A stretch of DNA of 64,000 nucleotides, from NCBI RefSeq assembly GCF_012910805.1, contig NZ_WTVK01000016.1, forward strand, positions 1 to 64,000, written 5' to 3'. Under the pieces are notes generated by a model that worked only from the letters and a program-made list of their open reading frames with translations, had not been told where the DNA came from and ran no database searches. Shown piece by piece: positions 30,155 through 49,987 of this stretch (position 1 is the stretch's first letter; each line of letters opens with the position of its first letter). The stretch comes from Aromatoleum evansii (GTDB lineage Bacteria; Pseudomonadota; Gammaproteobacteria; Burkholderiales; Rhodocyclaceae). A program made the translations under genes and the position numbers.

Positions 30155-30195
30155 TTGTATTACACCCTGCACATGCTGGAAACCACCTTCAAACA

Positions 30196-30222
30196 ATTAA
30201 TGCGGCATTCCGCTGCATTAAT
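30196..30222 (-). repeat. Dyad-symmetric hairpin between two glycosyltransferase genes
   Basis: ATTAATGC (30196-30203) and GCATTAAT (30215-30222) are perfect inverted 8-bp arms, extended inward by GG/CC and GC pairs with a bulged T. It lies in the only sizeable gap inside the Eps operon, just upstream of the last gene. It could be an mRNA-processing hairpin or a site for a dimeric regulator controlling that gene separately. Confidence 0.55.
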
Positions 30223-30244
30223 AGATGCGAAACCCGATTCATAC

Positions 30245-31357
30245 TCAATTGCCGCAATTGCCACCGGAATTTGCGCGCAGTCGCTCTGACAATCGCACAT
30301 GGCGCATTGCGAATCCGCGCGTTGTCAGATCACGATCAGCCATTTGTCGCTGCGCGCAAACCGCGCGCCCCAATGCACCTGATGGATCTTTTGCCGACGC
30401 CTTGATCGCATCTCGCAGCGACTGGGCATCTCCCGGATCAACATAGGTCACAGCATCCGCGGCGAAATAGGCCAGCAAACCACCCGTCAAGGTAGCAACG
30501 ACGGGGACTCCCAAGGCAACCGCTTCAAGAATCGCGGTAATTCCCGAAGCGTGAAGATTTTCCTTCAAGGGCACTACCGCGCAGTCTGCCCATGCATAGG
30601 CCGCCCTCACCTCATCCTGAGTCATGGCTCCAACATGCACGTTGTCTGCGGAGAATCTACGGGGCCAAACCGAGGAACCTACACGCAACTCAAAGTCAGG
30701 CCGCCCGCCAATTGCCTCGAACAAGGTAGACCAGTCACGATGGCGATCATTTCCAAGCGCCAGAACACGAACTGGCCGGGAAGCATCAAATTTCAAATTT
30801 GGTGCCCGTAGCGGGAAACTATCAAGCGAAATGCCGAATAGAACCACTTCGCAAGGCAGTTGGAATCCCAATTCGTCCGCAACCGCCTTGTTATCGGGTG
30901 AGTGAAAAGTCGCCACGGCCGATCGCCCCAGCAAATACCGATAGAGCGATTTCTTCAGATCCGACAAACGCGGCCACACATCAATCAACCAAACCGACTG
31001 CGCGATAACCGGCGGTCCATCCTTTCTGAGCAATGCGCGAAGCGCAGCAATTCCCAGATGCTCATATTCCGTGTGCGTCCAGATTACATCGTAATCGGCG
31101 CCCAGCAAGGCCCGGCGATTATTCCAGGCATGCCGAATATCAAACCCCAGCAAACGTTTGACAACCTTGTCCGCCACCCCCAAAAGCCCACCTGACGTGA
31201 CGGTCGGCCGCGAGAAGGAGACCAGGGCTCCCGCCTCCTCCGCGAAGTGATAACCATACGGGGTCACGTCCGGCGCCTCGCCACGAGCAAATCGCTCCTG
31301 CCAGCGCGCCGCATCGAGCGCCCGCGGAAGCAATACGAAAACGCGCAGTGAACTCAC
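30245..31357 (-). CDS. Glycosyltransferase, family 4 type
   Basis: A 370-residue GT-B-fold glycosyltransferase. Donor-side signature region: NLHASGITAILEAVALGVPVVATLTGGL, corresponding to the E-x7-E motif (E of TAILEAVALG), preceded by WADCAVVPLKE. The N-terminal acceptor half includes YDVIWTHTEYEHLGIAALRA and APNLKFDASRPVRVLALGN. Which sugar it transfers cannot be told. It overlaps the upstream glycosyltransferase stop by 4 bases (ATGA). Its codons and bases look A+T-richer than the genes in the flanks. Confidence 0.88.
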   Translation of the reverse strand: MSSLRVFVLLPRALDAARWQERFARGEAPDVTPYGYHFAEEAGALVSFSRPTVTSGGLLGVADKVVKRLLGFDIRHAWNNRRALLGADYDVIWTHTEYEHLGIAALRALLRKDGPPVIAQSVWLIDVWPRLSDLKKSLYRYLLGRSAVATFHSPDNKAVADELGFQLPCEVVLFGISLDSFPLRAPNLKFDASRPVRVLALGNDRHRDWSTLFEAIGGRPDFELRVGSSVWPRRFSADNVHVGAMTQDEVRAAYAWADCAVVPLKENLHASGITAILEAVALGVPVVATLTGGLLAYFAADAVTYVDPGDAQSLRDAIKASAKDPSGALGRAVCAQRQMADRDLTTRGFAMRHVRLSERLRANSGGNCGN

Positions 31358-32550
31358 GCGCCCCGCTCCGATGGCGCACCCTGCATGGCATAACGATCGG
31401 CAAAGAACCCGCGGTAGGAAGCAACCAGTGCTCTCGCGGACTCCGCCCAGTCAAATTTTTTAATCTGCTCGGCCCCCTCGGTCACCATCGTGGCGGCCAA
31501 CTCCGGATCGCCCAGCACTTTTTCGAGCCCCTGAGCGATACTCGTCACATCCAGCGGATCAACCAGCACCGCAGCGCTGCCAGCCACTTCCGGCATCGAC
31601 GTCGTGTTGCTGGTCACCACCGGCACCCCACTCGCGAGGGCTTCCGCAACTGGCATGCCGAACCCCTCCGCAATCGCGGGAAAGACAAAGGCGCGGGCGT
31701 TTCGCATCAACACCGGCAACATGTCATCCCCAACATTTTCCAAAAAATGAACTCGCCCCTGAACGCCAAAGCGCGTTGCCGCGTCAAGCGCCGCTGCATA
31801 GCCAAAATCACGCTGACCGACGCAAACCAGAGGCGGCGCGCCCTCACCAAGGCGGCCAAAAGCCTCAATCAACCGTGCATGGTTCTTTCGTGGCTCAAGA
31901 CGGCCTACCGTTAACAAATAGCCACCCGCATCCAGGCCAAGCGGCGCAAGCTTTTCCACCCCTTCCCGTCCTGGGAAAAACCTCGCCCTGTCGACGCCGT
32001 TGTACAACACGCGAATGCGCTCAGCTTCAATGCCAAAGCGCGTCGCAATCTCCTTGCGCGAAAACTCGCTGACGCTAAACAGCAAACGCGCAACCCGAGC
32101 TGCCAGCCGGAAAGTCAGCTTCGACTGCAGCGTAAAGAAATGCGGAAAATATTCAGGATGACTTTCAAATAAAACATCATGAATAGTGCACGCACAAGGT
32201 CCGAGCGGAAAAAACGGCAAGCGGTACTGGGTATGCAGCAAATCCAGCTTTTCACGAACTTGCAACCACGGCAATTGCAGTCCAAGACGAATGGGTCCCG
32301 GCCGGTGCGGCATGCGAACCAGGCGCACATTGGGCGCCCCGAATTCAGGATGGGCCGACTTCAACTGCTCAGGATTATCAAGAAACAGGATGAAGTCCAT
32401 CTCCGGAGCCAGCCGTATCGCCTCCCGGAAGATACCCAGAACATGGCTGCGGCTGCCCTGAAAGATCCCGTCAAAAGTATGAAAATCAACCCCAACCTGC
32501 GGCCGACACCAACCTTCCCGCAATCGTGAATAAGCGAAGGCTGCCATCAC
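31354..32550 (-). CDS. Glycosyltransferase, family 4 (GT1 superfamily) type
   Basis: A 398-residue GT-B-fold enzyme close to mannosyltransferases of exopolysaccharide loci. N-terminal: VDFHTFDGIFQGSRSHVLGI. The nucleotide-sugar region is TVGRLEPRKNHARLIEAFGR, then FVFPAIAEGFGMPVAEALASGVPVV carrying the E-x7-E motif. Its start overlaps the stop of the secreted GH99-like gene (ATGA), so it is co-translated. It probably adds one sugar of the repeat unit on the cytoplasmic side. Confidence 0.92.
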   Translation of the reverse strand: MMAAFAYSRLREGWCRPQVGVDFHTFDGIFQGSRSHVLGIFREAIRLAPEMDFILFLDNPEQLKSAHPEFGAPNVRLVRMPHRPGPIRLGLQLPWLQVREKLDLLHTQYRLPFFPLGPCACTIHDVLFESHPEYFPHFFTLQSKLTFRLAARVARLLFSVSEFSRKEIATRFGIEAERIRVLYNGVDRARFFPGREGVEKLAPLGLDAGGYLLTVGRLEPRKNHARLIEAFGRLGEGAPPLVCVGQRDFGYAAALDAATRFGVQGRVHFLENVGDDMLPVLMRNARAFVFPAIAEGFGMPVAEALASGVPVVTSNTTSMPEVAGSAAVLVDPLDVTSIAQGLEKVLGDPELAATMVTEGAEQIKKFDWAESARALVASYRGFFADRYAMQGAPSERGA

Positions 32551-33659
32551 TTGCCACCTCCGAATACCATGTTAATGCGCTTCAAATACTCAAAGCCGTA
32601 TAGCTTTGTAGGCTCCACATAAGATCCTTCGCCATATTCGTTCCAGCAGCAGACCATACCGACCCCCTGAGTTTTTGACGGATTAGCCTTCAATAGCACC
32701 CGCGCCTTCAGCAAATGGCGCTCAAAGCTATCCGGTGTGGATATCGAGTCATCATGACGAGGATCCTTCTTACTCCCACCCCAAGGCCGCTTATCCCAGC
32801 CTGAAGTCATCGGGATGAAATATGGCAAATTGCTGTTTTTGATAATCCAGTTCCACTGCATCTGATACGCGCTATCGAGTTCCTCGAAGCTATGGGAATC
32901 GGGAGTACGCTGGTCTGAATTTCCGGCCAGCCCGAAGTGGTAGTTGTATGCACTCAATGCATCAAACCCCGACTCGGGCGCAAACTTTTGGACCCAATAA
33001 TCGGTGGCCGGCACACTCAACACAAAATAGATACCCGGCAGCCCCGCCGCCTTCGCCTTCTCACGAGCGCGATCAAGCATCTCCGCAACCTTCAGCCCGA
33101 TAATTTTCGCCTGGTCGCGAATAACGTCCGCCGAAAAAACAAACAATACCGGCTTGCCCTGAATCTTCACGTACTCCGGGTTCTGCAGATGGCGGCCGAT
33201 CCAGTAATCCACCAGTGCATCCCACTCCTGGAGGGTACGCGGCTCCTTGGTATGGTTTGCCCACAGCAGCGAATATCGCACACGCGCCCGCTCGGGTGAC
33301 TGAAGATAAGCGCGAACAGAAGTTTCCGGCGCCGGACGCCCTTTTTCCCAATACCAGTCGAAGGTGACGAAATCGATGCCGTAATCAGCCATCCAGCCGA
33401 GTTGGGTATCAAGAACCTGGCGCTGCGCATCGTTATACCAGCCGAGCAGCGGCTCGCGTTCGGGGTAGGCCTTGATCGCAAGCCACGGATCGGGCTCATG
33501 CGATCCCTTGGTGTAAGGCGACCAACCCGGGTAGTAATAAACGCCGATTGTGTAGTCAGCGGCATATGAAGTCTGGCTGCCGATTACGAGAAGAAATGCC
33601 AGCGCAAGGCGTTTGGCCAGATTGCAAAAAGCGTATTTCAAGTCGCGCCTCGAAGACAT
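32547..33659 (-). CDS. Secreted GH99/WbsX-like glycan-active protein
   Basis: A 370-residue protein with a Sec signal (RLALAFLLVIGSQTSYA, cut before ADYTIGVYYYPGW). The mature part shows the GH99-like/WbsX motif: DFVTFDWYWEKG, then a C-terminal CCWNEYGEGSYVEPTKLYGF that carries two glutamates where GH99 endo-mannosidases have their catalytic acids. Most WbsX-type proteins in O-antigen clusters are cytosolic putative glycosyltransferases; the signal peptide places this one in the periplasm, which fits a hydrolase or transglycosidase trimming the exported polymer. It overlaps the flippase-fusion gene by 22 bases. The enzyme type is inferred. Confidence 0.75.
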   Translation of the reverse strand: MSSRRDLKYAFCNLAKRLALAFLLVIGSQTSYAADYTIGVYYYPGWSPYTKGSHEPDPWLAIKAYPEREPLLGWYNDAQRQVLDTQLGWMADYGIDFVTFDWYWEKGRPAPETSVRAYLQSPERARVRYSLLWANHTKEPRTLQEWDALVDYWIGRHLQNPEYVKIQGKPVLFVFSADVIRDQAKIIGLKVAEMLDRAREKAKAAGLPGIYFVLSVPATDYWVQKFAPESGFDALSAYNYHFGLAGNSDQRTPDSHSFEELDSAYQMQWNWIIKNSNLPYFIPMTSGWDKRPWGGSKKDPRHDDSISTPDSFERHLLKARVLLKANPSKTQGVGMVCCWNEYGEGSYVEPTKLYGFEYLKRINMVFGGGK

Positions 33660-36376
33660 TCCATCATGGCTTTGGAAGCCAGCGCCTCAACCAACGGCCG
33701 GCGCGATTCGATCTGCGCGCGTGTCGAGGCGATATCGTCCAGATGTGCGCAAACCTTCCTATACAAAACCTCATCGGAGCAGACCTCCGCCGGTTCCAAC
33801 AGGTGCGACGAACCCAGACAAAAATGTGCAAGTGCACCCGCAAACTTTCCTTGATACTCAATCGCCACGACGGGAACATCTCGCCCAAGTGCCGCAATCA
33901 TCAAATGCATCCGCCCGGTGAGAACGAGGTCGAAAAGTGCGCATACCTGCTTCACATCTACTGCGGTATAAGGTCCAGTCGCCAACAGGACTCGCTCGCG
34001 GGCATGGCTAGGAATTCGGGAAAAAATATCGGCAAGCATGGCGGGATCACTGGCGTGTGGCCGAAAGTCATGAGGTATCAGGACGACGCTGACATCGCGT
34101 TCAGACACTAAACGCCCAATAACCACAGCAGAGGCTTCGGCCGCCTTGTTTCGCTGATCGTGCGTAAGCAATTTCAGCGAATGGGGCGAGAGATTCCAGC
34201 CAATCACGGGACCGGTGCCGCGGTGTCCTTGAACCAGCCAATTTTTTACATTTACCTCAAGCTCGCTACTCTTCGCCGGTTCCAGCAAGTACGCCAAGTC
34301 AGCCATCAACTGGACATGCTCACCGACAAGTTTGACCAAGCGGTCGCGCGAGACGCTATCGCGACATAGCAACTTCACACTGCTCGGTAGTTTCTTGAAC
34401 GCCGCAGCCGTGGCCGGGTCAGGCTGTTCGTTAAAACTGAAGCTGCACAATACCGTTGGCACCCCACGGTTCGCTGCAAAGGCAGCAATCCCCAGACGCA
34501 ACACCGACTCGAAGCGAGAGTAAAATCCATCGAGCACATCTGCGCCCACAACCACGAATCCGCGGGCATTGGCTACCTCTCGGGCGAGTGCCCGTGCTTG
34601 GGCAAAACTACCCCACACAGAATGCGGGAGTAGTTCAATCCCGTCTACTTTCGGCAAAGTAACAGCTGGGCGACACAAAACACGCGCACGTGTAATTCCG
34701 GATTGTCGCAATAGCGTAATCAATCCACCAAAAAGAGCTTGGTCCCCTACTGAGCCAACGATGGAATACGCGTCGCCGAACACGAGAAGAACATCCCCGC
34801 TTCTACGATGCGAGCTATGGAAATCACTACCCGACCCCGAGGCAAAAATCACGAGGTAGGCTTTCGCACGCAGACCGTCCTCGAAACGAATGAGCGCTCT
34901 GAGTACAGGGCCAAAACGAGCAGCTATGCTTGCCGGCAGCCGGGCGCAATGCTTCAGGAGGACTCCGGGCATTAATACGATAATGGATGCGGCGAATAAC
35001 AGAACGCTAACCCCTAGACCTAGCGCCGCAAGTGCCAACTCGGGTAAATATCCTTCCAGAGATTCAAGCAGAACGAGACTTACTAACGCTGCTATGCAAG
35101 CCGCCACAACAGGCTTGGCCACAATACGAAACACTTTCATTGAACCAATACCTAGCTTAAAAAAGACAACTCTTAACATGAACGCCAACACGATCAATTG
35201 GCCGATCAGCAGACTCGCACCCACCCCCGCAGAGCCGAAGGACAGTAATGGAGGAATGGCGCAGAGCGTGACAGCGGTACGGGCAAAACCGATACTCAAC
35301 GCCGCATCCGCCTCCCCAACCGCCTGCAGAATTCCGCCAAACAAAAAAGCAATCGAACGCAGCGCCCCCAACACGCAAAGAATCTGAAACGGCGCGACCG
35401 CCTCATGCCATTGCTCCCCAAACACGGCGGGAACCAGCGCCTCGGCACTGGCGGCAGCCAACAGGAAGGCGGGCATGATGAGTAGAGCAGCCAGCAATAC
35501 CCGATCCTCGAATGCTGCCGCAAGGGACTTGCGGTCATTCTGGCGGCGTGCAAAAACGGATATCGATGACTCCCAGAGCGGTGCTGCCAGCAGTTGGGTG
35601 GCTGATTGTTGCGCCCTTGACGCCAGGGCGTAGTGGCCAAGTGCAACAACACCAAGATAGCGGGCGATAACCAGTTCGAGTACCCGCGTTTCGACCAGAT
35701 CAAGCACCTTGACCAGCGTGATGCGCGATGCAAAGCCGAACAGTTCGCCGAGCGCCTTGCGGTCAAAGACAAGCTGGGGTCGCCATGCTTCGTGGCGCCA
35801 CAATACGGCGGTGCTGACCGCCTGAAAGACCAGTTGCTGCACGACGAAGGTCCAAACGCCAAGCCCGCTTGCGGCGGCAACGATGGCGACAATGCCGCTA
35901 AGCAGGTTGGACAGGGCTGTGCGCCGCGCGAGGGTGCGATAATCCAGCGCACGACGAAGCAGCGCCGACGGCACACTGGACACTGCCATGAAGCCAAAGG
36001 CCGGCGTCAGGGTCATGATGATTGGCTCGACGCCCGGGCTGTCGAACGCCGCGGCAAAGGCGGGGGCTGCAAGCAGGGTGGTCAACGCCAGCGTCGCACC
36101 GATCATCAAGGTGACCCAGAAGGCGCTGCTGCGGTGCGCCTCCGTCAGGGTGTCGCGCTGAACGATGGCGTGCCCGAAGAGTTGCTCGACGAAGATTTCA
36201 CCGAGCGTCAGAAAGATCATGGCGACGGCAAAGGCGCCAAACTCCGCGGGCGTAAGCAGGCGCGCCAGACCAAAAAATACGATGAGGGTGATGCCCCGCG
36301 CGGCCCAGTTCTGGACATAGGCCCATACCGTTGCGGCGGTATCGGAAATCCGTTTTCCGGAATCAGTGTTCGCCAT
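33638..36376 (-). CDS. Fusion protein: Wzx-type oligosaccharide flippase + polysaccharide pyruvyltransferase
   Basis: A single 912-residue reading frame without a break. Residues about 1-480 form a MATE/Wzx-like flippase with about 12 hydrophobic helices (LTPAEFGAFAVAMIFLTLGE at the start, typical of the RfbX/oligosaccharide flippase family). After a short linker, residues about 520-912 form a polysaccharide pyruvyl transferase domain: GDVLLVFGDAYSIVGSVGDQ (GxxGD type), then LTGRMHLMIAALGRDVPVVA. Pyruvyl caps add negative charge to exopolysaccharides. The fusion could couple pyruvylation of a lipid-linked repeat to its flipping. It overlaps both neighbours (14 and 22 bases). A sequencing error joining two genes cannot be excluded, but the frame shows no gap. 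Confidence 0.85.
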   Translation of the reverse strand: MANTDSGKRISDTAATVWAYVQNWAARGITLIVFFGLARLLTPAEFGAFAVAMIFLTLGEIFVEQLFGHAIVQRDTLTEAHRSSAFWVTLMIGATLALTTLLAAPAFAAAFDSPGVEPIIMTLTPAFGFMAVSSVPSALLRRALDYRTLARRTALSNLLSGIVAIVAAASGLGVWTFVVQQLVFQAVSTAVLWRHEAWRPQLVFDRKALGELFGFASRITLVKVLDLVETRVLELVIARYLGVVALGHYALASRAQQSATQLLAAPLWESSISVFARRQNDRKSLAAAFEDRVLLAALLIMPAFLLAAASAEALVPAVFGEQWHEAVAPFQILCVLGALRSIAFLFGGILQAVGEADAALSIGFARTAVTLCAIPPLLSFGSAGVGASLLIGQLIVLAFMLRVVFFKLGIGSMKVFRIVAKPVVAACIAALVSLVLLESLEGYLPELALAALGLGVSVLLFAASIIVLMPGVLLKHCARLPASIAARFGPVLRALIRFEDGLRAKAYLVIFASGSGSDFHSSHRRSGDVLLVFGDAYSIVGSVGDQALFGGLITLLRQSGITRARVLCRPAVTLPKVDGIELLPHSVWGSFAQARALAREVANARGFVVVGADVLDGFYSRFESVLRLGIAAFAANRGVPTVLCSFSFNEQPDPATAAAFKKLPSSVKLLCRDSVSRDRLVKLVGEHVQLMADLAYLLEPAKSSELEVNVKNWLVQGHRGTGPVIGWNLSPHSLKLLTHDQRNKAAEASAVVIGRLVSERDVSVVLIPHDFRPHASDPAMLADIFSRIPSHARERVLLATGPYTAVDVKQVCALFDLVLTGRMHLMIAALGRDVPVVAIEYQGKFAGALAHFCLGSSHLLEPAEVCSDEVLYRKVCAHLDDIASTRAQIESRRPLVEALASKAMMECLRGAT

Positions 36377-37568
36377 GCGATTTCACCATCCGGGAAAAAA
36401 TGTCGGCGATGCGCGCACGCCAGGCTTCAGTTGCGAACTGGCTGCCGGCGTGACTGCGCGCCGCGTCGGCCAAGCGCCCACGCAGGCCGGCATCCTGCAG
36501 GACGCTCACGATCGCATCGGCAAAGGCGGCAGGCTCATCCTCCACCAGCACCTCCTGCCTGTGCCTTGCCCCGGTGCCCTCGGCTCCGATCCGTGTCGCC
36601 ACGACAGCCGAACCGGCCAGCATGGCTTCAACCGTCTTGATTTTTACGCCACCGCCACTGACCAGCGGCACAACCGTAACGCTGTTGTTGGCATAGAACG
36701 TGAAAATGTCCGGCACAAAGCCGGAAAATGAGACGCCCTCGCCGACTCGGGCAACGAACTCCGGCGGCGGATTGCGCCCTGCAACGACAAAGCTGGCATG
36801 TGGAACCCGGGCCAACACCCGAGGCCACACCTGATCGAGAAACCATTGCAACCCTTCTCGATTCGGGCGGTGCCCAAATGCACCGGCAAAGCCAACACGC
36901 ATTGGAACGGGTGCGCTGGCTGGCGGAACGCCTTCGGTCAGTGGCAAGCCCATGGACAGGGTCACACTAGCCGGATTCATGGCGGACAATACATTCGCAT
37001 CCTGTTCGGATAAGGTCAGGACAGCGGAAAACCCGGCGTAATGCCTTGCTTCATAGCGTGCCCAGCAGACCCAGTCGAGCCAAGCCCGTACGCCACCGAT
37101 CCCCCGCACGCGTTGCGCGTGGCGAAATCCGGATAGGGTGTAGGCGTCCTGCACGTCCATGATGCACGGGGTATCGCCGCACAGCGTCACGTATTGCGCC
37201 ATCTGGGGAAACTGGATCCAGACAACATCCGGTTTCAAGCGGGCAAGATGCTCACGCAAGGCGTTCTGCATTGACGCTTGCCAGCACAATGCCGCGAGGT
37301 GAGGCTTGGACAACGAGAGCGAACCGAAAGCCGCTTTTGCGACCCGGATGCGATCGATGATGAGCGGAACTGTCTCGACCCCTTCGCATACCTGAGCCAG
37401 CGCTTGTGTACATTTCTCTTCGATATCGCGGGCCATGACGCCCGAAAAGGAGAGAAATGAAACCGCGTGCTGACTCGCCAAAGCGGCAATCTGACGGAAG
37501 GTGACGACACCACCACCATTGCCTGAATCAAGACCGGAGAGGAATGGTGCGACAACCAGAATCTTCAT
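36363..37568 (-). CDS. Glycosyltransferase, family 4 type
   Basis: A 401-residue GT-B enzyme beginning MKILVVAPFLSGLDSGNGGG, the usual form of exopolysaccharide glycosyltransferases of this family. The donor region is VTVVPLVSGGGVKIKTVEAMLAGSAVVAT, with GVKIKTVEAM as the conserved glycine/lysine-containing loop and E near its end. ATG 37568 overlaps the polymerase stop (ATGA); an in-frame ATG 9 bases upstream is possible. Its stop lies inside the start of the flippase fusion (14-base overlap), so the three genes are co-translated. Confidence 0.9.
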   Translation of the reverse strand: MKILVVAPFLSGLDSGNGGGVVTFRQIAALASQHAVSFLSFSGVMARDIEEKCTQALAQVCEGVETVPLIIDRIRVAKAAFGSLSLSKPHLAALCWQASMQNALREHLARLKPDVVWIQFPQMAQYVTLCGDTPCIMDVQDAYTLSGFRHAQRVRGIGGVRAWLDWVCWARYEARHYAGFSAVLTLSEQDANVLSAMNPASVTLSMGLPLTEGVPPASAPVPMRVGFAGAFGHRPNREGLQWFLDQVWPRVLARVPHASFVVAGRNPPPEFVARVGEGVSFSGFVPDIFTFYANNSVTVVPLVSGGGVKIKTVEAMLAGSAVVATRIGAEGTGARHRQEVLVEDEPAAFADAIVSVLQDAGLRGRLADAARSHAGSQFATEAWRARIADIFSRMVKSHGEH

Positions 37569-38836
37569 CGCTTCCATTCTTTGCGTTCAACTATGGAGAG
37601 GCAAAACCCCAGGAGCAGCAGCACGGATACCAGCGCAGTCTTGTTGAAGGGCCCGGCAATCAACCACGACGTGAGCAAACTGACTGCAACTGCGCCCTGC
37701 ACAATTAGACCGGCAAATCGTTCGTCTGGATCAACCGAGCGCGCGGCGACCGCCCCCCTACGAAACAACCAGCCGAACGAGACGAGGTAAAGGATCAAAC
37801 CCAAAGCTCCCGTCTTTACCAGAACATACAACATGCCGTTATGCAGAACAGGTATGTAACGCATGGGGCCATCACCGAGAAATAGGTATACCCCGAGGTC
37901 AACAAAGTGACCGAACCCTCGCCCTCCTAACCAACGTAGCACTCCGCCATCAACATAGTCTTTGTAGGCTCTGGCCGTCTCGAAGCCACGAAAATTATCA
38001 TTGATGCTCTGTTGGTCACGGTAGTCTGCAATGGTTAGTTCCTGGGCCGAACGGAGCATTTTGCCGGTGAATGTTTTTTTCTCTGCTTCGCTGGCAGGTG
38101 GCAGCGAAGCAGCCAGCGCGCCGAGCAATGCGAGGCCAACGATTACCGCAGCTCCGAGTTTGACGAAACGTGAACCAAGCATCAGGCCTCTAAGTGCAGT
38201 CCAGAAGACCAAGACAACAAGTACCAGAGTACGCGAATATGCCAAGGTTATAGACACCCCGCACAGCAAGAGGACAATCCACCCGAAAATCGGGCGTATG
38301 GCCAACATTTCACGCCAACGCCCAATAGAGGCGATAAGAAATGCGCACGTAAGGCCAACAACGAAATTCCCGTTTCCTGCCAAGGCTCGTACTTCGGTGG
38401 CCGGCAAGCTAAGCAGATTCGGGTTAATAGCAAACTTGGCTAGATGCAAGCTAGCAAGAATGAGGCCGGCTATTACTAAAAGGCGCAAAGCATGCGATAG
38501 CCTTGGTGTTAGAGCGCCAAATGAATACCCGACGAGTATAACGCCAACCGGATTGATGAAATACCAAGCATCTTTTAGATAGGGATAGGGTTCATTGTCG
38601 TACCCAAATGCCATACCAAGGGCAATTATTCCGCTAAAACAGATTAGCAGTACCCATAGAGATTTCGGAAAGCGATTATTCCTCGTACCCCAGACGACTA
38701 ACGCGAGAACCAGAAAATAGGCGTTCATCCCACTGACCAAGGAGATCGGGAGATACGATCCGCCGAGCAGCAGGAAAAATAGCGAATACAGCGGCCAGTC
38801 TGGCGGCTCTGTGCGCATCGGCGGACGGTAATTCAA
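37565..38836 (-). CDS. O-antigen polymerase/ligase-like membrane protein (Wzy/WaaL)
   Basis: A 423-residue protein with about 11 transmembrane segments and a large periplasmic loop (about 250-320: FRGFETARAYKDYVDGGVLR and RGFGHFVDLGVYLFLGDG). The end of that loop, HNGMLYVLVKTGALGLILYL, is typical of the Wzy_C/O-antigen-ligase family. In Eps loci this protein polymerises the lipid-linked repeat units in the periplasm. It is weakly conserved and A+T-rich, as polymerases usually are. It starts 15 bases after the GT2 stop and overlaps the following glycosyltransferase. Confidence 0.85.
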   Translation of the reverse strand: MNYRPPMRTEPPDWPLYSLFFLLLGGSYLPISLVSGMNAYFLVLALVVWGTRNNRFPKSLWVLLICFSGIIALGMAFGYDNEPYPYLKDAWYFINPVGVILVGYSFGALTPRLSHALRLLVIAGLILASLHLAKFAINPNLLSLPATEVRALAGNGNFVVGLTCAFLIASIGRWREMLAIRPIFGWIVLLLCGVSITLAYSRTLVLVVLVFWTALRGLMLGSRFVKLGAAVIVGLALLGALAASLPPASEAEKKTFTGKMLRSAQELTIADYRDQQSINDNFRGFETARAYKDYVDGGVLRWLGGRGFGHFVDLGVYLFLGDGPMRYIPVLHNGMLYVLVKTGALGLILYLVSFGWLFRRGAVAARSVDPDERFAGLIVQGAVAVSLLTSWLIAGPFNKTALVSVLLLLGFCLSIVERKEWKR

Positions 38837-38851
38837 TGCTAAGATACTCCT

Positions 38852-39853
38852 TTAGATCTTATCCGAGGCAGCTGAAACACCGAGCAGGGTCTGTCTAGCA
38901 AACTGCCAACCAACTACCAGAAAGGCTTTGACTTTGTCATTTATCACTTGCCTCTTCTGCTGATTCGCAGATGTGCTCAGGGAGACCGCACAAAGGGCTG
39001 CAGCCCGCATATAGAACACGGCTGCCAGACCAAGTGATGCAGCCCTGGCTACTAATGCATTGTGATGTTTTGCTAGGTAGATCGAGTAGGAGCGACCGGT
39101 TCGTTGCAATGCAGCTTTTCCGATCCACGGCCGACCTGCACCTTCATAGTGGATAACCAATGTCTCTGCAACAAAGGCAATTCCAAATCCGGCGTTACGA
39201 ATACGCAGACAGTAGTCGACGTCCTCGCAGTACATGAAGAACGCTTCGTCGAAGCCGCCAAGGCGCTCCCATATTTCGCGGCGAGTGGCGAGGCAGGCTC
39301 CGGAAACCCAGTCGACTGAGGTATGCGATTGTTCGTAATACGCGGGATCGGTTTCCATTCGCCGGAAGATCGATGGCAAGCGGTGTTTCTTTTCCAATCC
39401 CAACCACGACAGGACAAGACGAATCGGGCGATGGTGAAAGCCCACGGAGAACTGGGTTCGCCCGTCACTGTAGACGAGCCGGGAACCTGCGGCGCCTACT
39501 TGCTCAGCCAGCGCTTGATCGATGAGGGAATCGAGTTGTCTTTCGATGCGCGTGTCGTTATTGAGCAGCAGCAATACTTTTCCGCGAGCGCTGCGCGCTG
39601 CGAGGTTGTTGCCCCCGGTAAAACCTGTGTTTTCCAACGACTCGATGTAGCGAATGTCCGAGCGCGCCTGCAGGAAGGCTTGACTACCATCGCTCGAGGC
39701 ATTATCCACTACTACGACTTCGTACGAATAACGGCTGAATGCGGTCCTGATGGATTCAAGGCATTCGTCAAGAAAACGGAGACCGTTGTAATTGACGATC
39801 AGCACAGAAACATCAGGATTTTTTTTCTCGCTTGGCCCGACCGGATTCATCAT
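38852..39853 (-). CDS. Glycosyltransferase, family 2 (rhamnosyltransferase-like)
   Basis: A 333-residue GT-A fold enzyme: VSVLIVNYNGLRFLDECLES with the nucleotide-binding start, VVVDNASSDGS and LLLLNNDTRI (the DxD-like position), then GFDEAFFMYCEDVDYCLR, the acceptor-side acidic motif of the family. Similar proteins often add rhamnose. The start (MMNPVG) overlaps the epsI stop by 4 bases. A hydrophobic segment near the C-terminus suggests membrane attachment. Confidence 0.9.
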   Translation of the reverse strand: MMNPVGPSEKKNPDVSVLIVNYNGLRFLDECLESIRTAFSRYSYEVVVVDNASSDGSQAFLQARSDIRYIESLENTGFTGGNNLAARSARGKVLLLLNNDTRIERQLDSLIDQALAEQVGAAGSRLVYSDGRTQFSVGFHHRPIRLVLSWLGLEKKHRLPSIFRRMETDPAYYEQSHTSVDWVSGACLATRREIWERLGGFDEAFFMYCEDVDYCLRIRNAGFGIAFVAETLVIHYEGAGRPWIGKAALQRTGRSYSIYLAKHHNALVARAASLGLAAVFYMRAAALCAVSLSTSANQQKRQVINDKVKAFLVVGWQFARQTLLGVSAASDKI

Positions 39854-40584
39854 CGTATGCTTCCAACTTCTTCGGGACTGACCGGGCCGATCAGGAACCC
39901 ACGTGTATTCGTGTCTACGGTTGTGAGCAGGTCTACGACAAAGCGCTCCTGGAGGTGGTATGCAGCTTCGTTGTCACCAGATATTGACGAAACCCGAAAC
40001 AGGATGCCATCGGGTATCCAGCCCTTGAAGCCGTGCATTAGCCTGGCAAGACGTTGATCGTTACCGGATGCCACGATGTAGTCACCGACTCGCATCCAGT
40101 AGGAGATCGGTTCGTGTCGGCTATTTGTCTGAGCGATCAAACGCTGAATGGGAAATTGGCTCTCGCGTTCTGCTAGCTTTATTGATGACTTGCCGACGGT
40201 TTCAAGTGAAAACCCTTGAGCGAAATAGCAAACTTCCGGCCTATGTAATTCGACATCACCACTCTGCATTTCCCCATAAGCAATCGATAACATGACGCGC
40301 TGCCCCTGCGCATTGACGTAGGTGCGGGTCAGGGTCTGAGAATAGAGTGCATCCAGCAAGCCTTTCTGCTGCGGAGCGACGACACTTTGCATACCCCCGC
40401 TATCCAAATGCCAGTCGCCGAATGAGACTGGAATTGCGCTTTCCAGCCTGAGATTCTTGTTCAAGGCTGCCATCGGGTTCCGCGGTGCCAACGCCCACGC
40501 CGACAGCGATGCACAGAACATTAGCGTGCATGCCACGATGCTGCTGCGACGCATTTTTGCCCCTTTGCCAGAATTGCTGGTCAT
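39850..40584 (-). CDS. epsI: Exosortase-associated protein EpsI
   Basis: A 244-residue protein with an N-terminal membrane/signal segment (MRRSSIVACTLMFCASLSAWA) and a periplasmic domain of the EpsI family (FGDWHLDSGGMQSVVAPQQ..., ELHRPEVCYFAQGFSLE, QTNSRHEPISYWMRVGDY). In other Eps loci EpsI is encoded next to, or fused with, the exosortase; its exact role in the pathway is not settled. Its ATG overlaps the xrtB stop (ATGA), so the two are co-produced. Confidence 0.9.
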   Translation of the reverse strand: MTSNSGKGAKMRRSSIVACTLMFCASLSAWALAPRNPMAALNKNLRLESAIPVSFGDWHLDSGGMQSVVAPQQKGLLDALYSQTLTRTYVNAQGQRVMLSIAYGEMQSGDVELHRPEVCYFAQGFSLETVGKSSIKLAERESQFPIQRLIAQTNSRHEPISYWMRVGDYIVASGNDQRLARLMHGFKGWIPDGILFRVSSISGDNEAAYHLQERFVVDLLTTVDTNTRGFLIGPVSPEEVGSIR

Positions 40585-41486
40585 ACGCGCCTCCGCCCCG
40601 ACTGTGCAGCGCGCAAGATGGTATCCATACCGATAATGAGTAATAGAGCACTCGCAAACAGCACCATCCCCGCAAACCCATGCATGAAGCCCTGCCCCGC
40701 CGCATCACCGTAGTAGTACGTCACCAGCGTCAGCACGATCACGCGAATCACGTTCGCCGCAAACGAAATCGGCACGATCAGGATGGCGAGAATCGTGTTG
40801 CGCAACGCAGACGCGGATTGCGTGAGCTTGAGGTACAGCAGCCCGAGCGCTTCGAGCGTAAACAGGGTTTGCAGGCCGGCGCAGGCATCGGCGACGAGGA
40901 GCTTGTATTGCCCGATCTGGAGGATGACGCCGCTGCGGGCAATGGGGTAGCCGAGTGAATAGAGCACGTTTTCCGCGACCACAGAGACGGCGATCTTCAT
41001 GGGCATGGTGATGGCGTCCACCACCGCACCGGGCAGCGGGATCATGAAGAGCATGAAGAACAGCGCGAACCACTGCGCCTTGACCGCCTGCCCCCCCCGC
41101 TGGATGAGGAGCACGGCGATGAGCACCCACACCAGCGAGCCGATCTCGAAGATGAGGATGTCTTGCGAGCGGCCGAGTACTAAGAGCAGCAGGCCGACGA
41201 TGAGGATGGGCCAGCCGGCGACGGAGGATGGCCCGCCGGAGCTGCGAGCTAGCATGGCGGGCCACTGGCGGTACAGCAACCACAGCGACAGGCCGAGCAC
41301 GATGGGCCCGTGCGCCTGTTCGGGTGTGCTCCAGATGGTGCGGAAGAGGTCGATGAAGCTGGGAACGTAGAGGAAGCACAGGCCCGCCAGCACGATGAGC
41401 CACGGCGCGAGCGGTTCCGCCTCCAGCCCGCCCGGCGGTGCCGGCGCGAGTTGTTCCATGGTTGCGGCGCGCGCCGGCGGTGTCAT
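40581..41486 (-). CDS. xrtB: Exosortase B (PEP-CTERM sorting transpeptidase/protease)
   Basis: A 301-residue membrane protease with eight or so transmembrane helices. The exosortase triad is complete: C202 (ADACAGLQTLF), R248 (AANVIRVIVL) and H269 (GFMHGFAGMVLF). It recognises the PEP-CTERM tail of exported proteins and cleaves at the VPEP site in the membrane. The start is ATG 41486, with AGGG 7 bases before it and 10 bases after the epsG stop; a second in-frame ATG 27 bases downstream is possible. Two PEP-CTERM substrates are encoded nearby (45793-46140, 46380-47063). Confidence 0.93.
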   Translation of the reverse strand: MTPPARAATMEQLAPAPPGGLEAEPLAPWLIVLAGLCFLYVPSFIDLFRTIWSTPEQAHGPIVLGLSLWLLYRQWPAMLARSSGGPSSVAGWPILIVGLLLLVLGRSQDILIFEIGSLVWVLIAVLLIQRGGQAVKAQWFALFFMLFMIPLPGAVVDAITMPMKIAVSVVAENVLYSLGYPIARSGVILQIGQYKLLVADACAGLQTLFTLEALGLLYLKLTQSASALRNTILAILIVPISFAANVIRVIVLTLVTYYYGDAAGQGFMHGFAGMVLFASALLLIIGMDTILRAAQSGRRRV

Positions 41487-41496
41487 CGGCGTGCCC

Positions 41497-42369
41497 TCAG
41501 CCCGCGTCGTTGAGGACGCTGCCGACCACCGTGATGCCGGCCTGGTGGAACTCGCCCGCGAGCTTGCGCAGTGCGGCCGTTCGCGTGAGGTGCGGGCGCG
41601 CGACGAGCAGCGTGCCGCCCACACGTGCGCCGACGGTGAAGGTGTCCGCGCTGCTGCTGGCGGCAGGGGTGTCGATGAGGATGACGTCGTAGTCCTCGGC
41701 GTATTGCTTGAGGAGCGCCGCGAAGGCCGGGCGGGAGATCAGTTCCTGCGGGTTGGGCGGCGTGGCGCCGGCGGGCAGCACAGACAGATCGACGAGTGCC
41801 GACACGCGACGTACGATCTCCGCATCGCCACGGCCGGAGAGCGCCGCCGAGAGGCCCATGCGGTTATCGACGCCGAAGAGCACGTGCTGGCGCGGGTTGC
41901 GCATGTTGGCGTCAATGATGAGGGTGCGCTCTCCGAGCTGGGAGAACACCACGCCAAGATTGGCGACGACCCACGAACGCCCTTCCCCGCGTGCGGGGCT
42001 CGCCACCGCGAGGCAGCGCCGACCGGCTTCGGGATCGAACCAGCGCAGCATGAGCTGGCTGCGCAGCGCACGCAGCGCCTCGACCTGCGGATCGAAGGGA
42101 TCGTAGGCGGCGACGACCTCTTCGGCTACGCCACTTTCGCCGCGCTGCAGGTACGGGTAGTCGAACTGCCGCGAGAGCGCGTACTGTATGTCACCCTCAT
42201 TGACGAGGCCGAGCTGGCGCGCGGCGTCGCCGAAACGCAGGCCGCCTTCGCGTTGCAGGCGCAGGATCTTCTCGGCGTCTTCGGGTTTCAGGCGGCCGGC
42301 GTCGATGAGAATGGCGCCGATGGAGCGTTCGCCGTGGGCGAGTTCCTTGGTGCTGATGGGGGCGTTCAT
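41497..42369 (-). CDS. epsG: Chain-length-determinant-associated tyrosine kinase-like protein EpsG
   Basis: A 290-residue P-loop protein that acts with EpsF to control polymer length and export. The Walker-A region reads SPARGEGRSWVVANLG, with Arg in the place of the usual Lys (GEGKS in most BY-kinases). The A' motif is TLIIDANMRNPRQH and Walker B is DVILIDTPA. No C-terminal tyrosine cluster is present, so it may lack the usual autophosphorylation tail. The N-terminal 80 residues resemble a GspE-N/EpsG-type domain (ERSIGAILIDAGRLKPEDAE). The start is ATG 42369; an earlier in-frame ATG would give 19 unconserved residues. Confidence 0.88.
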   Translation of the reverse strand: MNAPISTKELAHGERSIGAILIDAGRLKPEDAEKILRLQREGGLRFGDAARQLGLVNEGDIQYALSRQFDYPYLQRGESGVAEEVVAAYDPFDPQVEALRALRSQLMLRWFDPEAGRRCLAVASPARGEGRSWVVANLGVVFSQLGERTLIIDANMRNPRQHVLFGVDNRMGLSAALSGRGDAEIVRRVSALVDLSVLPAGATPPNPQELISRPAFAALLKQYAEDYDVILIDTPAASSSADTFTVGARVGGTLLVARPHLTRTAALRKLAGEFHQAGITVVGSVLNDAG

Positions 42370-42380
42370 GGACGGAGATC

Positions 42381-43724
42381 TCAGGCGCGGGAGGGGATGA
42401 TGCCCAGCAGCGGCGCGGCGGAGCATTGTTCGATGTCTTCGACGCCGCGTACGCGCTGGTCGACGAGTTCGAGCAGCAGCGCCGAGCCGAGGCCGAGCAA
42501 TGTGCCAAGGAAGACGGCGAGAGCAAGGTTGAGTGCTGTGCGCGGGCTGGAGTGCTGCAGGGGCGACGTCGCCGGGGCGAGCACGGCGATGTTGGTCTGC
42601 TGGGTGCGGCTCTCCAGGCTGGTCTGCGTCAGGCGCTGGGCGACGAGGTCGTATGCGCGCTGCGCGGATTCGACGTCGCGCTGGAGAACGGCGATCTGGT
42701 CACGCCGTTCGCGCAGTTGCAGTACGCGTTTCTTTTGGGCATCGAGCGCTGCGCGCAGATCGGCTTCGCGCGCGAGGTTGGAGCGGGTGGCACTGCCGAT
42801 CGAGCTGGCGATGCGTTGCGTTTCGGCGCCGATCCTCTCCCGCAGGGAGCGGATTTCGGCCTCGATGCGGGTGTAGTCGGGGTGGTTCTTGCCGACGCGC
42901 GAGGCGAGTTGCTCACGCGTGGCTTCCTGGCGCGCGAGTTCGGCTTTCAGGCCCTGGATGAGCCCGCTTTGTAGGACTTCCGGCATGGTGTCGGCCGCAC
43001 CGGCCTGCCCCTGGCGGGAGCGCGTTTCCATGCGCTGACCCTCGGCTGCGACGAGCTGAGTGGAGAGTTCGGCCAGGCGGGTGGTTTCCACGTCGAGGCG
43101 ACCGTCGCTCGGGACGATGCCGTGCTGGAGCTGGTAGTCGGAAAGACGTTTCTGGGCCGCTTCGACCTTCTCGCGCAGGGGCACGCTTTGTTCGTCGAAC
43201 CAGCGTGCGTACTGGCGAGCCGGTTCGACCTTGAGTTCGAGGTTCACTTCGATGTAGGCCTGCGCAAAGGCGTTGGCGACCGCTGCGGCGAACTGGGGGT
43301 CGGAGCCCGTGAAGGCGATGGTGATGACATTGCTCTCGCGTGAGGGCTTGACGCCGAGCTTCTTTTGCAGCGCCTCGGCCAGCCAGACGCGCAACTCGCC
43401 GTTTCCGTCAGCTTCGGCCTGCCATTGCTCGCGCACGGCGGGCACTTCATCGAGCTTGAGCATCGCAACGACACGCTCGGCGACCCGGTTGGAATTGATG
43501 ATGTCGACCTGGGTGGCCATATAGCCCGCCATCATCTGCGGGGGCAGGATGGCGCCGGCAATAGGGTCGGCCGACTTGGCATCGATGACCAGGACTGTCT
43601 CGGCGGTGTATTGGCGCGGAAGCAGCACGCTGACCAGCAGCGTGGTTGCGACCACCGTGCCAAGCACGCAGGCCACGACCAGCCAGCGGGCGCGCAGGAT
43701 GAGGAGAAACTGGTGGAAGGTCAT
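42381..43724 (-). CDS. epsF: Chain-length determinant protein EpsF (Wzz-type polysaccharide co-polymerase)
   Basis: A 447-residue inner-membrane protein with two transmembrane helices (about 13-33, and about 410-430) and a long periplasmic coiled-coil arm between (about 170-370). The N-terminal MTFHQFLLILRARWL and the PAPATSP-like end before the second helix (VLAPATSPLQHSSPRTALN) are hallmarks of Wzz/EpsF proteins. It forms the ring that sets polymer length and links the polymerase with the export channel EpsE. It starts 63 bases after epsE and is followed by epsG after 11 bases. Confidence 0.92.
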   Translation of the reverse strand: MTFHQFLLILRARWLVVACVLGTVVATTLLVSVLLPRQYTAETVLVIDAKSADPIAGAILPPQMMAGYMATQVDIINSNRVAERVVAMLKLDEVPAVREQWQAEADGNGELRVWLAEALQKKLGVKPSRESNVITIAFTGSDPQFAAAVANAFAQAYIEVNLELKVEPARQYARWFDEQSVPLREKVEAAQKRLSDYQLQHGIVPSDGRLDVETTRLAELSTQLVAAEGQRMETRSRQGQAGAADTMPEVLQSGLIQGLKAELARQEATREQLASRVGKNHPDYTRIEAEIRSLRERIGAETQRIASSIGSATRSNLAREADLRAALDAQKKRVLQLRERRDQIAVLQRDVESAQRAYDLVAQRLTQTSLESRTQQTNIAVLAPATSPLQHSSPRTALNLALAVFLGTLLGLGSALLLELVDQRVRGVEDIEQCSAAPLLGIIPSRA

Positions 43725-47063: not shown

Positions 47064-47215
47064 GCAGAGTGCCTCGATGAGCGTGAATTGATCGTGGTGA
47101 AGCCCCATCCATGGGAAGACGGTGCTAGCGGCGCTCGCACCGGCGGGCACTGATTGAGCCCGCTTGTTGCGACCGTTCCGCACGCTTCAGCATCCCATTC
47201 GGCATTTTTGCATAT

Positions 47216-47252: not shown

Positions 47253-48536
47253 TCAGAATGCGAGCTTCGCCGACATGAATAGACTGGCAGCACGGTATCC
47301 GGGATACGCATCGGATGACGAACGACGTTCGTTGCGCGCCCCCAGCTGGAGCGAGAGGTTCCTGGCCGGCGACCATTCCAGTGCGAGGGCGCGTGCCTGC
47401 GTGCGGTCATCGCGATCCGGCGCGACAATACCGAAGGGATCACCGCCGTAATCGCGCTTGAGCCATTCGAGCCGCCCACGCAGACGTAGCTTGTTACCGA
47501 TCTGCCATACGGGGTCGACCGATACCGCACGCGTGATGACGAAGTTGTCGGCCACATCCTCGCGTGCGCCCATCTCGCGGCGCGCGGTCATGCCCAGCGC
47601 GAGCTTTCCCGTCGGGTTCCAGTCGAAAGTGACGCGACCGGTCAAGCCGTTGAAGTCCTTGTCGCCCGCATGAGGGTATTGGCGCGCGGTGTAGCCGACT
47701 TGACCGCTCACCCGACTATGGCCGGTCACGCCCCAGTCGGCGCGCAGGAGCAGGTCGCGCTGCGTGTAGCCTGTGACCGTTGTGAGTGTTTCATTGCGTT
47801 CGGGATAGCGGCCCTCCGCATCGCGGCCTACCAGCGCCAGCGTGCTACCGGCCAAGGATCGATACTGCACGAGGGCTTCGACGGCATCTTCGATGTACTC
47901 GGATCCGGCGGATTCCCGGTCGTCGAATCGGCTGTCCATCCGAGCCCACCCGGCTCCGAACGACCACTGTGGATGCATCAGGTAGCGCGCATCGGCGCGG
48001 TACTGGCGGAAGGTGTTGATGCTACGTACGGTGCCGATGCGATCGGAGAAGCTGCGCAAGCGTTCGTCCTGCCGGGCGGAAATTGTGCCGCTCCACTGGT
48101 TGCCGAGAATCCACTGCCAGGCGGCGCCGAAATTGTGTGCAGTGAAATCGAGGTGGTCGAACTCGAGATAGTCGCTCCGGGTCAGGGCAAAGTCTGCTGT
48201 CAGCCGTTGCCGGCTGTAGGTGCGACCCAGCTGTGCCGCGAGTGTGGTGACGCTGAGCCGGTCGTCCCGTGGACGACGCGATCCTTCGATCTCCGGGCGC
48301 GCACCATCAGCCACGCGGAAGAGGTTGTCCTCCCAGACGAGATCCTGGCTGACGGAGATCGTTAGCGGGTCATTTTCAGACGCAGCAACGGGAAGTGTTC
48401 CTGTTCCCGCGATCACCAGAAAGCTGAACAAAATCCTCGCATAAGCATTCGCTTGCGCCGATGCGTAAACATGCTGAAGACATGTTTGTGACGGTATGTT
48501 GCGACATGTACGTCTGCTACGCGATGTGTTATGCAT
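47253..48536 (-). CDS. epsL: Exopolysaccharide outer-membrane beta-barrel EpsL
   Basis: A 427-residue protein of the EpsL family found with exosortase-B Eps loci. After a long N-terminal stretch and a hydrophobic segment (ILFSFLVIAGTGTLPVAAS) the mature protein is a beta-barrel rich in alternating strands (QDLVWEDNLFRVADG, WSGTISARQDERLR, SGQVGYTARQYPHAGDKD), ending in the aromatic-terminal SLFMSAKLAF recognised by BAM. It likely forms the outer-membrane exit of the polymer. The start is uncertain: the ATG 48536 gives 34 residues before the signal segment and lacks a ribosome site. It diverges from epsB. Confidence 0.82.
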   Translation of the reverse strand: MHNTSRSRRTCRNIPSQTCLQHVYASAQANAYARILFSFLVIAGTGTLPVAASENDPLTISVSQDLVWEDNLFRVADGARPEIEGSRRPRDDRLSVTTLAAQLGRTYSRQRLTADFALTRSDYLEFDHLDFTAHNFGAAWQWILGNQWSGTISARQDERLRSFSDRIGTVRSINTFRQYRADARYLMHPQWSFGAGWARMDSRFDDRESAGSEYIEDAVEALVQYRSLAGSTLALVGRDAEGRYPERNETLTTVTGYTQRDLLLRADWGVTGHSRVSGQVGYTARQYPHAGDKDFNGLTGRVTFDWNPTGKLALGMTARREMGAREDVADNFVITRAVSVDPVWQIGNKLRLRGRLEWLKRDYGGDPFGIVAPDRDDRTQARALALEWSPARNLSLQLGARNERRSSSDAYPGYRAASLFMSAKLAF

Positions 48537-48592
48537 GGTTTGTGAATGTCAATGCGGTATGCTTATCGAAAATTTTAGCCGCTCCTTTTATC

Positions 48593-49987
48593 ATGTTTGC
48601 ATCAAGCTACAAACAGGGCACCTTCTGGCGGGGCAGTTTATCGGCTGCACGCGCCATCGAGTCCTTTCTCGATCCGGTTGCAGCAACAGCCCTGCTGTTT
48701 GCCGTCGCGACCGTGTGTGGAGAGCGATTCGGCCCCCCCTACGTGATCGTGGGACTTATTTCCTTCTCGCTGACCTTCCCAGGCGATTTCTGCCTTCGCG
48801 ATACCACGCGGAGGATGGTCCGAAAAACCTTGACTTCATGGCTGTTGATCGCTGCCGTATTGTTGGCATTCGGCCACGCGAGCGGATACGTGCATTACTT
48901 CGCCGAGGAGGTCGTCTTTGTGTGGCTGGCCAGCCTCCCGCTGGCGTGGCTGGTGACTCGCTGCGCTGCACGCCTGTTGCTGTCGCAGATGATGTCGAGC
49001 GAGCTCCGCCAACGGCGCGCGGTGGTTGTCGGTTGCAACGAAACGGGCTTACGTCTGGCAGGGGAGCTTGCGCACGATCCGTTCAACGGAATTTCATTTG
49101 CGGGCTTCTTCGATGACCGGGGCCGCGAACGCCTCGATGGAATCGGCGATAGCCCGCTGCTTGGCCGGATCGGTGAGCTGGCCCAGTTCGTGAAGCAGCA
49201 TGCGGTAGACCATATCTACGTGGCACTGCCGATGGCGAGCCAGCCGCGCATCCTGCGGTTGCTGGATGACCTGAAGGACACCACAGCGTCCATCTACTTT
49301 GCGCCTGACATCTTCCTGACGGATCTGATCCAAGGGCGTGTCGATCACGTTGGCGGCATGCCGGTGGTGGCCGTATGCGAGACGCCTTTCACGGGATTCG
49401 ACGGCTTCGCGAAGCGCGTGTCCGACATTTTCCTGTCACTACTGATCCTCGCGTTGATCGCTCCGGTGATGATAGCCGTCGCCATCGCGGTGAAACTGAG
49501 CTCGCCCGGGCCGATCATCTTCAGGCAACGGCGTTACGGACTCGATGGCAAGGAGATTGTCGTTTACAAGTTTCGCTCGATGACGAGCTGCGACGACGGC
49601 AGTGAGGTGAAGCAGGCCACGCGCGGTGACCAGCGGATCACGCGCGTTGGCGCGATCCTTCGCAAGACGTCGCTCGATGAACTGCCGCAATTCATCAATG
49701 TGCTGCAGGGACGGATGAGCATCGTCGGGCCGCGGCCCCATGCAGTGGCGCACAACGAGACTTACCGCAAGCTGATCAAGGGCTACATGGTGCGGCACAA
49801 GGTGAAGCCCGGGATCACCGGGTGGGCGCAGGTGTGCGGCTACCGCGGCGAGACGGACACGATCGAAAAGATGGAAGGACGCATCGAGTACGATCTCGAG
49901 TACTTGCGCACCTGGTCGCTGTCGCTCGACCTGTGGATCATCGTGAAGACGGTGCTGCTGGTGGTGCGTGACCGCAACGCGTATTGA
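48593..49987 (+). CDS. epsB: Undecaprenyl-phosphate glucose phosphotransferase EpsB (WcaJ-like)
   Basis: A 464-residue inner-membrane sugar-1-phosphate transferase that starts the repeat unit on undecaprenyl phosphate. N-terminal helices (about 15-110) are followed by a CoA-binding-like domain (about 135-260), then the catalytic C-terminus: [54 protein letters not shown] and [18 protein letters not shown] chose ATG 48593 (MFASSYKQG), because the upstream open frame is Cys-rich and unlike the family. It reads away from all other Eps genes, and its own promoter must lie in the roughly 56-base gap to epsL or overlap its 5' end. Confidence 0.93.

Follow-up and report, generated by a model that had tools for sequence, protein, structure and literature searches.

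Can the decoration of an exopolysaccharide repeat and its passage across the inner membrane be entrusted to a single protein? This question is raised by one gene of Aromatoleum evansii. The gene lies in a stretch of 64,000 nucleotides (NCBI RefSeq assembly GCF_012910805.1, contig NZ_WTVK01000016.1, positions 1 to 64,000), referred to here as the window. It encodes a protein of 912 amino acids that begins as a flippase and ends as a polysaccharide pyruvyltransferase. The stage at which exopolysaccharides are pyruvylated and the recognition of complete repeats by Wzx proteins are both generally unsettled; for xanthan, the accessible part of one source leaves the stage of pyruvylation open (PMC6801904). 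We believe that the fusion protein is quite probably bifunctional, a modify-and-flip protein that serves a Wzx/Wzy-type exopolysaccharide pathway associated with exosortase B.

A flippase and a pyruvyltransferase in one reading frame

The fusion gene occupies positions 33638-36376 of the minus strand. It is a single frame of 912 codons with an ATG start and 0 internal stops; the initial annotation had correctly described the uninterrupted 912-codon frame without stating its strand. Only three Pfam families matched the protein at E ≤ 0.001: PF13440 (residues 37-327, E = 1e-68, 232.2 bits against a cut-off of 23), PF01943 (residues 18-268, E = 2.8e-19, 70 bits, cut-off 28.2) and PF04230 (residues 607-842, E = 3.9e-17, 63.5 bits, cut-off 25.3). 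The MOP flippase domain covers residues 1-475 (34952..36376, minus strand) and was assigned from the first two families, helix prediction (14 predicted membrane helices, residues 12-468), charge bias and a structural match to MurJ. A basic linker, delimited by alignment, codons and charge, follows at residues 476-525 (34802..34951, minus strand); residues 468-529 hold 9 lysines and arginines. The polysaccharide pyruvyl transferase domain takes up residues 526-912 (33641..34801, minus strand), as judged from PF04230, the family alignment and GT-B-type structural matches. The motifs GSVGDQALFGG and GRMHLMIAALG, pointed out earlier, are present at residues 541-551 and 821-831. The same architecture was found in three other loci (L031, L032 and L033). 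At the level of sequence, the fusion of two known families in one gene is established. The frame overlaps the upstream glycosyltransferase gene of family GT4 by 14 nucleotides and the downstream WbsX gene by 22 nucleotides, and therefore looks like an internal gene of an operon.

The initial annotation had proposed looking for the fusion in other genomes, and the full-length fusion was found in three of them. When the C-terminal half was compared with one genome per species (GTDB r220), a scan that detects close relatives only, three genomes were obtained, all of Rhizobacter (Root1238, SG703 and OV335). All three have one frame across both domains, with 910-914 amino acids and 59-60% identity to the window protein, and a whole-genome search recovered these same full-length matches. 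Between Rhizobacter pairs, the ratio of nonsynonymous to synonymous substitution rates (dN/dS) was 0.18-0.23 for the flippase, 0.16-0.17 for the pyruvyltransferase and 0.12-0.22 for the linker. Purifying selection was stronger on the pyruvyltransferase half than on the flippase half in 3/3 of these pairs. The linker (alignment columns 477-528, approximately residues 475-526) has an identity of 90-94% among Rhizobacter. Between the window and Rhizobacter, its identity is 22-28%, against 59-66% for the two domains. The data indicate that selection maintains both domains and that the linker is constrained in the short term and has diverged in the long term.

The enzyme half was aligned with its relatives (11 members, 4 of them fusions). 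The alignment contained 37 invariant columns, including GxxGDxA, GAD..DG.Y, R-D, H-D-x-R, GRxH and Y..KF, and its profile matched E. coli WcaK across the N-terminal motif and the C-terminal half. R672 (34361..34363, minus strand), R822 and H824 of the GRMH motif (33905..33913, minus strand) and K844 (33845..33847, minus strand) fall on WcaK R183, R335, H337 and K357. These four residues are invariant in 11 of the 11 aligned members and in WcaK, and the profile alignment showed no counterpart of the GAD and HDxR motifs in WcaK. In CsaB, R148, H308 and K328 are critical to the binding of phosphoenolpyruvate (PEP), and R306 is a further docked contact (PMC10435577, accessible part). We infer that the four residues of the fusion occupy the positions of CsaB R148, R306, H308 and K328, respectively, because the order of the residues and the H-to-K spacing of 20 are common to the fusion, WcaK and CsaB. 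On the grounds of homology and of these four conserved residues, pyruvate is most likely the added group.

Apparent rarity and probable origin of the fusion

The fusion looks rare within the sampled genomes. It was detected in 1/17 genomes of the genus, and a full-length match was found in 1/297 genomes of the family sample and 1/399 of the order sample; in each case the one genome was that of the window. Among relatives of Rhizobacter Root1238, 3/149 genomes had a full-length match, and all three were Rhizobacter. The family, order and Rhizobacter-relative samples overlap, and all sampling was within one phylum. These full-length searches listed matches down to E = 1e-20 or 1e-30 and scored the best 2-3 candidates per genome (family and order) or the best 6 (Rhizobacter relatives). 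Of 72,556 plasmid records, 345 matched the fusion, none of them across more than 80% of its length. A scan of viral contigs found no credible relative. In a literature search without architecture databases and most subscription journals, no description of a flippase/pyruvyltransferase fusion was found in the text accessible.

A search with PF04230 only was carried out in 399 genomes of the order and 398 of the phylum, in overlapping samples. Listed frames of at least 700 amino acids, together with shorter ones picked by eye, gave 22 frames in 20 stretches. Two of the frames, L147 and L149, measured 314-316 amino acids, and L147 ends at an internal stop. Among the matches listed, 0/22 frames exceeded a single hydrophobic 19-mer peak, and no flippase-like membrane part was seen. 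By the same rule, the window protein has 8 peaks and each Rhizobacter protein has 10. Zero hydrophobic peaks were counted in the frame on contig C268 of the window's own genome (717 of 1011 amino acids examined) and in both matches in genome G714, which are one frame.

It had been claimed that the two functions are normally separate proteins. This was borne out in the other sampled genomes and by E. coli wzxC and wcaK. At 25/60 loci, a flippase frame lay within 1.5 kb of the PF04230 gene; in 23 cases it was upstream and in the same orientation, in 2 it was downstream, and in 0 it was on the opposite strand. These 60 loci were the best-scoring ones of the order and phylum searches, not a random sample; several belonged to a single family, and the profile used in finding the flippases had been built in part from flippases of these loci. 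In E. coli K-12, wzxC lies immediately before wcaK in the same orientation, and 275 bases separate the two. In genome G1123 (locus L184), near an exosortase B (XrtB) gene, a flippase gene is followed on the same strand and in another frame by a PF04230 protein of 443 amino acids, with 8 bases from the stop to the candidate start. Since the genes are separate in the other genomes sampled and often adjacent in the same order, the fusion looks like a collapsed gene pair. The window's own genome also carries a second, unfused flippase-pyruvyltransferase pair on contig C270 (L002, 1324-3354, minus strand), in the same order and 51 bases apart.

FastTree trees were built from 82 flippases and 39 enzymes. 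The four fusions formed one clade in both, with support of 0.985 in the flippase tree and 1.000 in the enzyme tree. A single fusion event in this lineage would be the simplest reading. The closest flippase found was a stand-alone protein of 445 amino acids in genome G069, with 48% identity; its cluster includes a WbsX gene as well. The stand-alone enzymes of the alignment have an identity of only 25-31%. These sequences do not discriminate between an enzyme lost in G069 and one gained in the fusion line. A candidate pyruvyltransferase remnant about 3.6 kb from this flippase (E = 0.007, 24%) lies in a region unlike pyruvyltransferase and was taken as a chance match.

A proposed modify-and-flip mechanism and its alternatives

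The best structural match of the flippase part (residues 44-482) was MurJ 6nc9 (Z = 14.9, root-mean-square deviation 6.2 Å, 330 aligned residues), obtained with a low-confidence model. The initial annotation had predicted a Wzx-type flippase with about 12 helices. The flippase assignment holds by Pfam; as to the helix count, the secondary structure of the low-confidence model suggests 14 membrane helices rather than 12. Its further claim that the pyruvyl domain is cytosolic agrees with the charge of the loops, which hold 19 lysines and arginines on the N-terminal side and 3 on the opposite side. By the positive-inside rule, this bias predicts a cytosolic location for the linker and the enzyme. 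Both termini, the linker and the enzyme domain would thus be cytosolic, and PEP is a cytosolic compound. The topology of WzxE agrees: in the accessible part of PMC11706664, both of its termini are cytoplasmic, its C-terminal tail sits where the lumen opens to the cytoplasm, and the arginine cluster of this tail is described as vital for activity. WzxE has 12 helices, against the 14 predicted in the fusion (PMC11706664, accessible part). The flippase of G069 (L064, 6475-7812, minus strand) stops after the equivalent of helix 13, without the final helix of the fusion, and its C-terminus would therefore be periplasmic if the helix count is right.

For the mechanism, we propose that ancestrally separate, often neighboring genes, a flippase gene followed by a pyruvyltransferase gene, merged into one. 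The C-terminal half, held in the cytosol on its basic linker, would transfer pyruvate from PEP to the undecaprenyl-diphosphate-linked repeat before flipping. The flippase half would then translocate this lipid-linked repeat across the inner membrane. Owing to the tether, the decorating enzyme would sit at the point at which its substrate exits the cytosol, at a fixed enzyme-to-flippase ratio of 1:1. A lipid-linked substrate and a benefit from tethering are presumed here. The substrate is proposed because lipid-linked precursors are what CsaB and WcfO modify, and their action is placed in the cytoplasm (PMC6801904, accessible part). The bifunctionality of the fusion protein is likely.

Several points weigh against this proposal. 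The full-length structure model is poor, with a mean predicted local distance difference test score (pLDDT) of 46.5. The flippase of G069 has no pyruvyltransferase gene in the 14 kb examined; since it stands alone, such a flippase can work without a partner. The linker is not free of constraint, given its identity and dN/dS among Rhizobacter. The enzyme half stays below the cut-offs of the CsaB and WcaK models of NCBIfam (TIGR03609, 36.5 of 213.1; TIGR04006, 20.7 of 727.1; NF007452, 21.8 of 399), and members of PF04230 may have activities other than pyruvyl transfer.

The alternative that survives best is that the fusion just sets stoichiometry or membrane location, the halves being independent when separated; we give it an even chance. 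The recurrence of adjacent separate genes (the 23/60 loci, G1123, E. coli wzxC-wcaK and contig C270) and the divergence of the linker between the window and Rhizobacter favor it. Nevertheless, the window's genome and three Rhizobacter genomes have all kept the fusion, and among Rhizobacter both halves and the linker are under purifying selection. Moreover, no ATG occurs between codons 469 and 691, where GTG and TTG codons exist, so a separate ATG-initiated C-terminal product is unlikely.

According to the reading of the initial annotation, the pyruvyltransferase domain is a quality control, and a repeat must carry pyruvate to enter or trigger the flippase. Wzx proteins can require a specific terminal residue, and an earlier study is quoted as proposing, without direct confirmation, that repeats ending in Glc and those ending in pyruvate have separate Wzx pairs (PMC6436433, accessible part). 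The position of the WzxE tail at the entrance suggests that a C-terminal domain could reach it (PMC11706664, accessible part). It is plausible that only capped repeats would be flipped. However, a Wzx can be specific for a terminal group without being fused to an enzyme, and no enzyme domain is present in the closest flippase found. A linker of about 50 residues that is strongly divergent between the window and Rhizobacter fits a loose tether better than a precisely docked gate, and simple tethering or fixed stoichiometry fits the data equally well. We consider such a gate unlikely. The broader idea, that this is the first natural Wzx-type flippase with a built-in decorating enzyme, in which modification and translocation are mechanistically coupled and pyruvylation hands over or licenses the repeat, is tentative, and we put its chance only slightly higher.

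The C-terminal half might also be another PF04230 or GT-B-type transferase, or a dead structural domain. Its sequence is distant from characterized enzymes. The model of the enzyme domain alone had a pLDDT of 60.5, and Foldseek TM-scores were low, at about 0.2-0.4. With these moderate models, the best structural matches, found by VIA-align, were to GT-B-type enzymes (Z about 10-11), and glycosyltransferases and epimerases were numerous among the matches. No solved relative was found by sequence, as searches of the PDB gave no credible one. The solved pyruvyltransferase Pvg1 (5ax7) was not among the structural matches listed, which is uninformative with such models. Against this alternative, the four PEP-contact positions are conserved, with the H-to-K spacing of WcaK and CsaB, and purifying selection on the enzyme half exceeds that on the flippase half in all Rhizobacter pairs. 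We therefore rate it as improbable. Since the NCBIfam cut-offs were not reached, the enzyme half is better regarded as a distinct subfamily. A joining of two genes by a frameshift or an assembly error, raised at the outset together with the possibility that all relatives are split by a stop codon, has a negligible probability, because three other genome records, those of Rhizobacter, carry the same full-length fusion, with one frame through the linker at the same position and lengths that differ by at most 4 residues.

The modify-and-flip protein proposed here can be compared with known systems. The WzxC and WcaK proteins of E. coli colanic acid resemble the fusion in gene order, the flippase gene coming directly before the pyruvyl transferase gene in the same orientation, and WcaK shares the PEP residues, but they are two genes and two proteins. 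The flippases WzxE, MurJ and TuaB of the MOP superfamily share the Polysacc_synt families with the flippase half; they are not known to carry an attached enzyme domain. CsaB and Pvg1 are stand-alone enzymes, unlike the fusion. These ketal-pyruvyltransferases of Paenibacillus alvei and S. pombe, respectively, would have the same four PEP-contact positions (PMC10435577, accessible part). MprF likewise consists of an N-terminal membrane flippase, a flexible loop and a C-terminal cytosolic enzyme that makes the lipid substrate of the flippase (PMC8131360, accessible part). However, its domains are unrelated, and its substrate is a phospholipid rather than an undecaprenyl-diphosphate-linked sugar; this is an analogy of design, not membership. 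The flippase and GNAT-type synthase domains of MprF were not among the Pfam matches of the fusion protein at the threshold given above.

A natural fusion argues that pyruvylation and flipping meet at one place. It offers one protein in which point changes could uncouple catalysis from flipping, and thus a natural test of the coupling between decoration and export. It also suggests a possible arrangement for separate Wzx/pyruvyltransferase pairs and a glycoengineering design for loading modified repeats.

The exopolysaccharide locus around the fusion

The window encodes most of a Wzx/Wzy-type set: a WcaJ-type enzyme, EpsL, an export protein, EpsF, EpsG, XrtB, EpsI, glycosyltransferases, a weak Wzy candidate and the fusion. 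EpsI, XrtB, the EpsG kinase and the chain-length protein EpsF lie at 39850..43724 on the minus strand. The NCBIfam scores were all above the cut-offs (XrtB 409, EpsF 605.7, EpsG 363.3, EpsI-type B 275.9 and EpsL 366.2 bits). A WcaJ-type undecaprenyl-phosphate glucose phosphotransferase is encoded divergently at 48461..49987 on the plus strand (TIGR03023, 524.5 bits, cut-off 410.75) and is the probable initiating enzyme by this match. XrtB, EpsF, EpsG, EpsI and EpsL are shared with XrtB/PEP-CTERM exopolysaccharide loci. Four other XrtB loci examined (L068, L184, L186 and L187) differ from the window in that the pyruvyltransferase of this subfamily is a gene of its own.

Directly upstream of the fusion is the GT4 glycosyltransferase gene (36363..37577, minus strand; Pfam/NCBIfam). 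It is followed further upstream by a gene for a membrane protein resembling Wzy or an O-antigen ligase (37565..38836, minus strand; PF04932, E = 8.8e-5, a weak match below the cut-off). Directly downstream, a WbsX/GH99-like protein with an apparent signal peptide is encoded at 32547..33659 on the minus strand (PF14307, E = 3.5e-25); a match to PF16317 (GH99-like) was below the cut-off. Because of the apparent signal peptide, this protein may be an exported glycan-processing enzyme, not a cytosolic glycosyltransferase as the Pfam name says. A WbsX gene shares a cluster with this flippase type in both Rhizobacter L031 and G069.

L031 is the one Rhizobacter locus that was mapped. From EpsI to the DUF1972 glycosyltransferase, 8/9 window genes are present there, Wzy being the missing one. 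Around the fusion, EpsI, GT2, GT4, WbsX and three further glycosyltransferases match the window at 53-74% identity. The gene order is that of the window apart from two glycosyltransferase genes behind WbsX, which have exchanged places; the stretch ends before the expected position of the exosortase gene. The window's Wzy-like protein had no match in L031 at E = 1e-5, and this mismatch hints at another linkage between repeats. A membrane-protein-like frame (1732-3201 of L031) occupies the Wzy position.

Two PEP-CTERM proteins, which are probable XrtB substrates, are encoded beside the exosortase genes (45793-46140 and 46380-47183, minus strand). The GC content of the middle of the locus (approximately 29500-40500) is 0.51-0.63, compared with 0.62-0.69 at the ends, as in exchangeable serotype-like cassettes.

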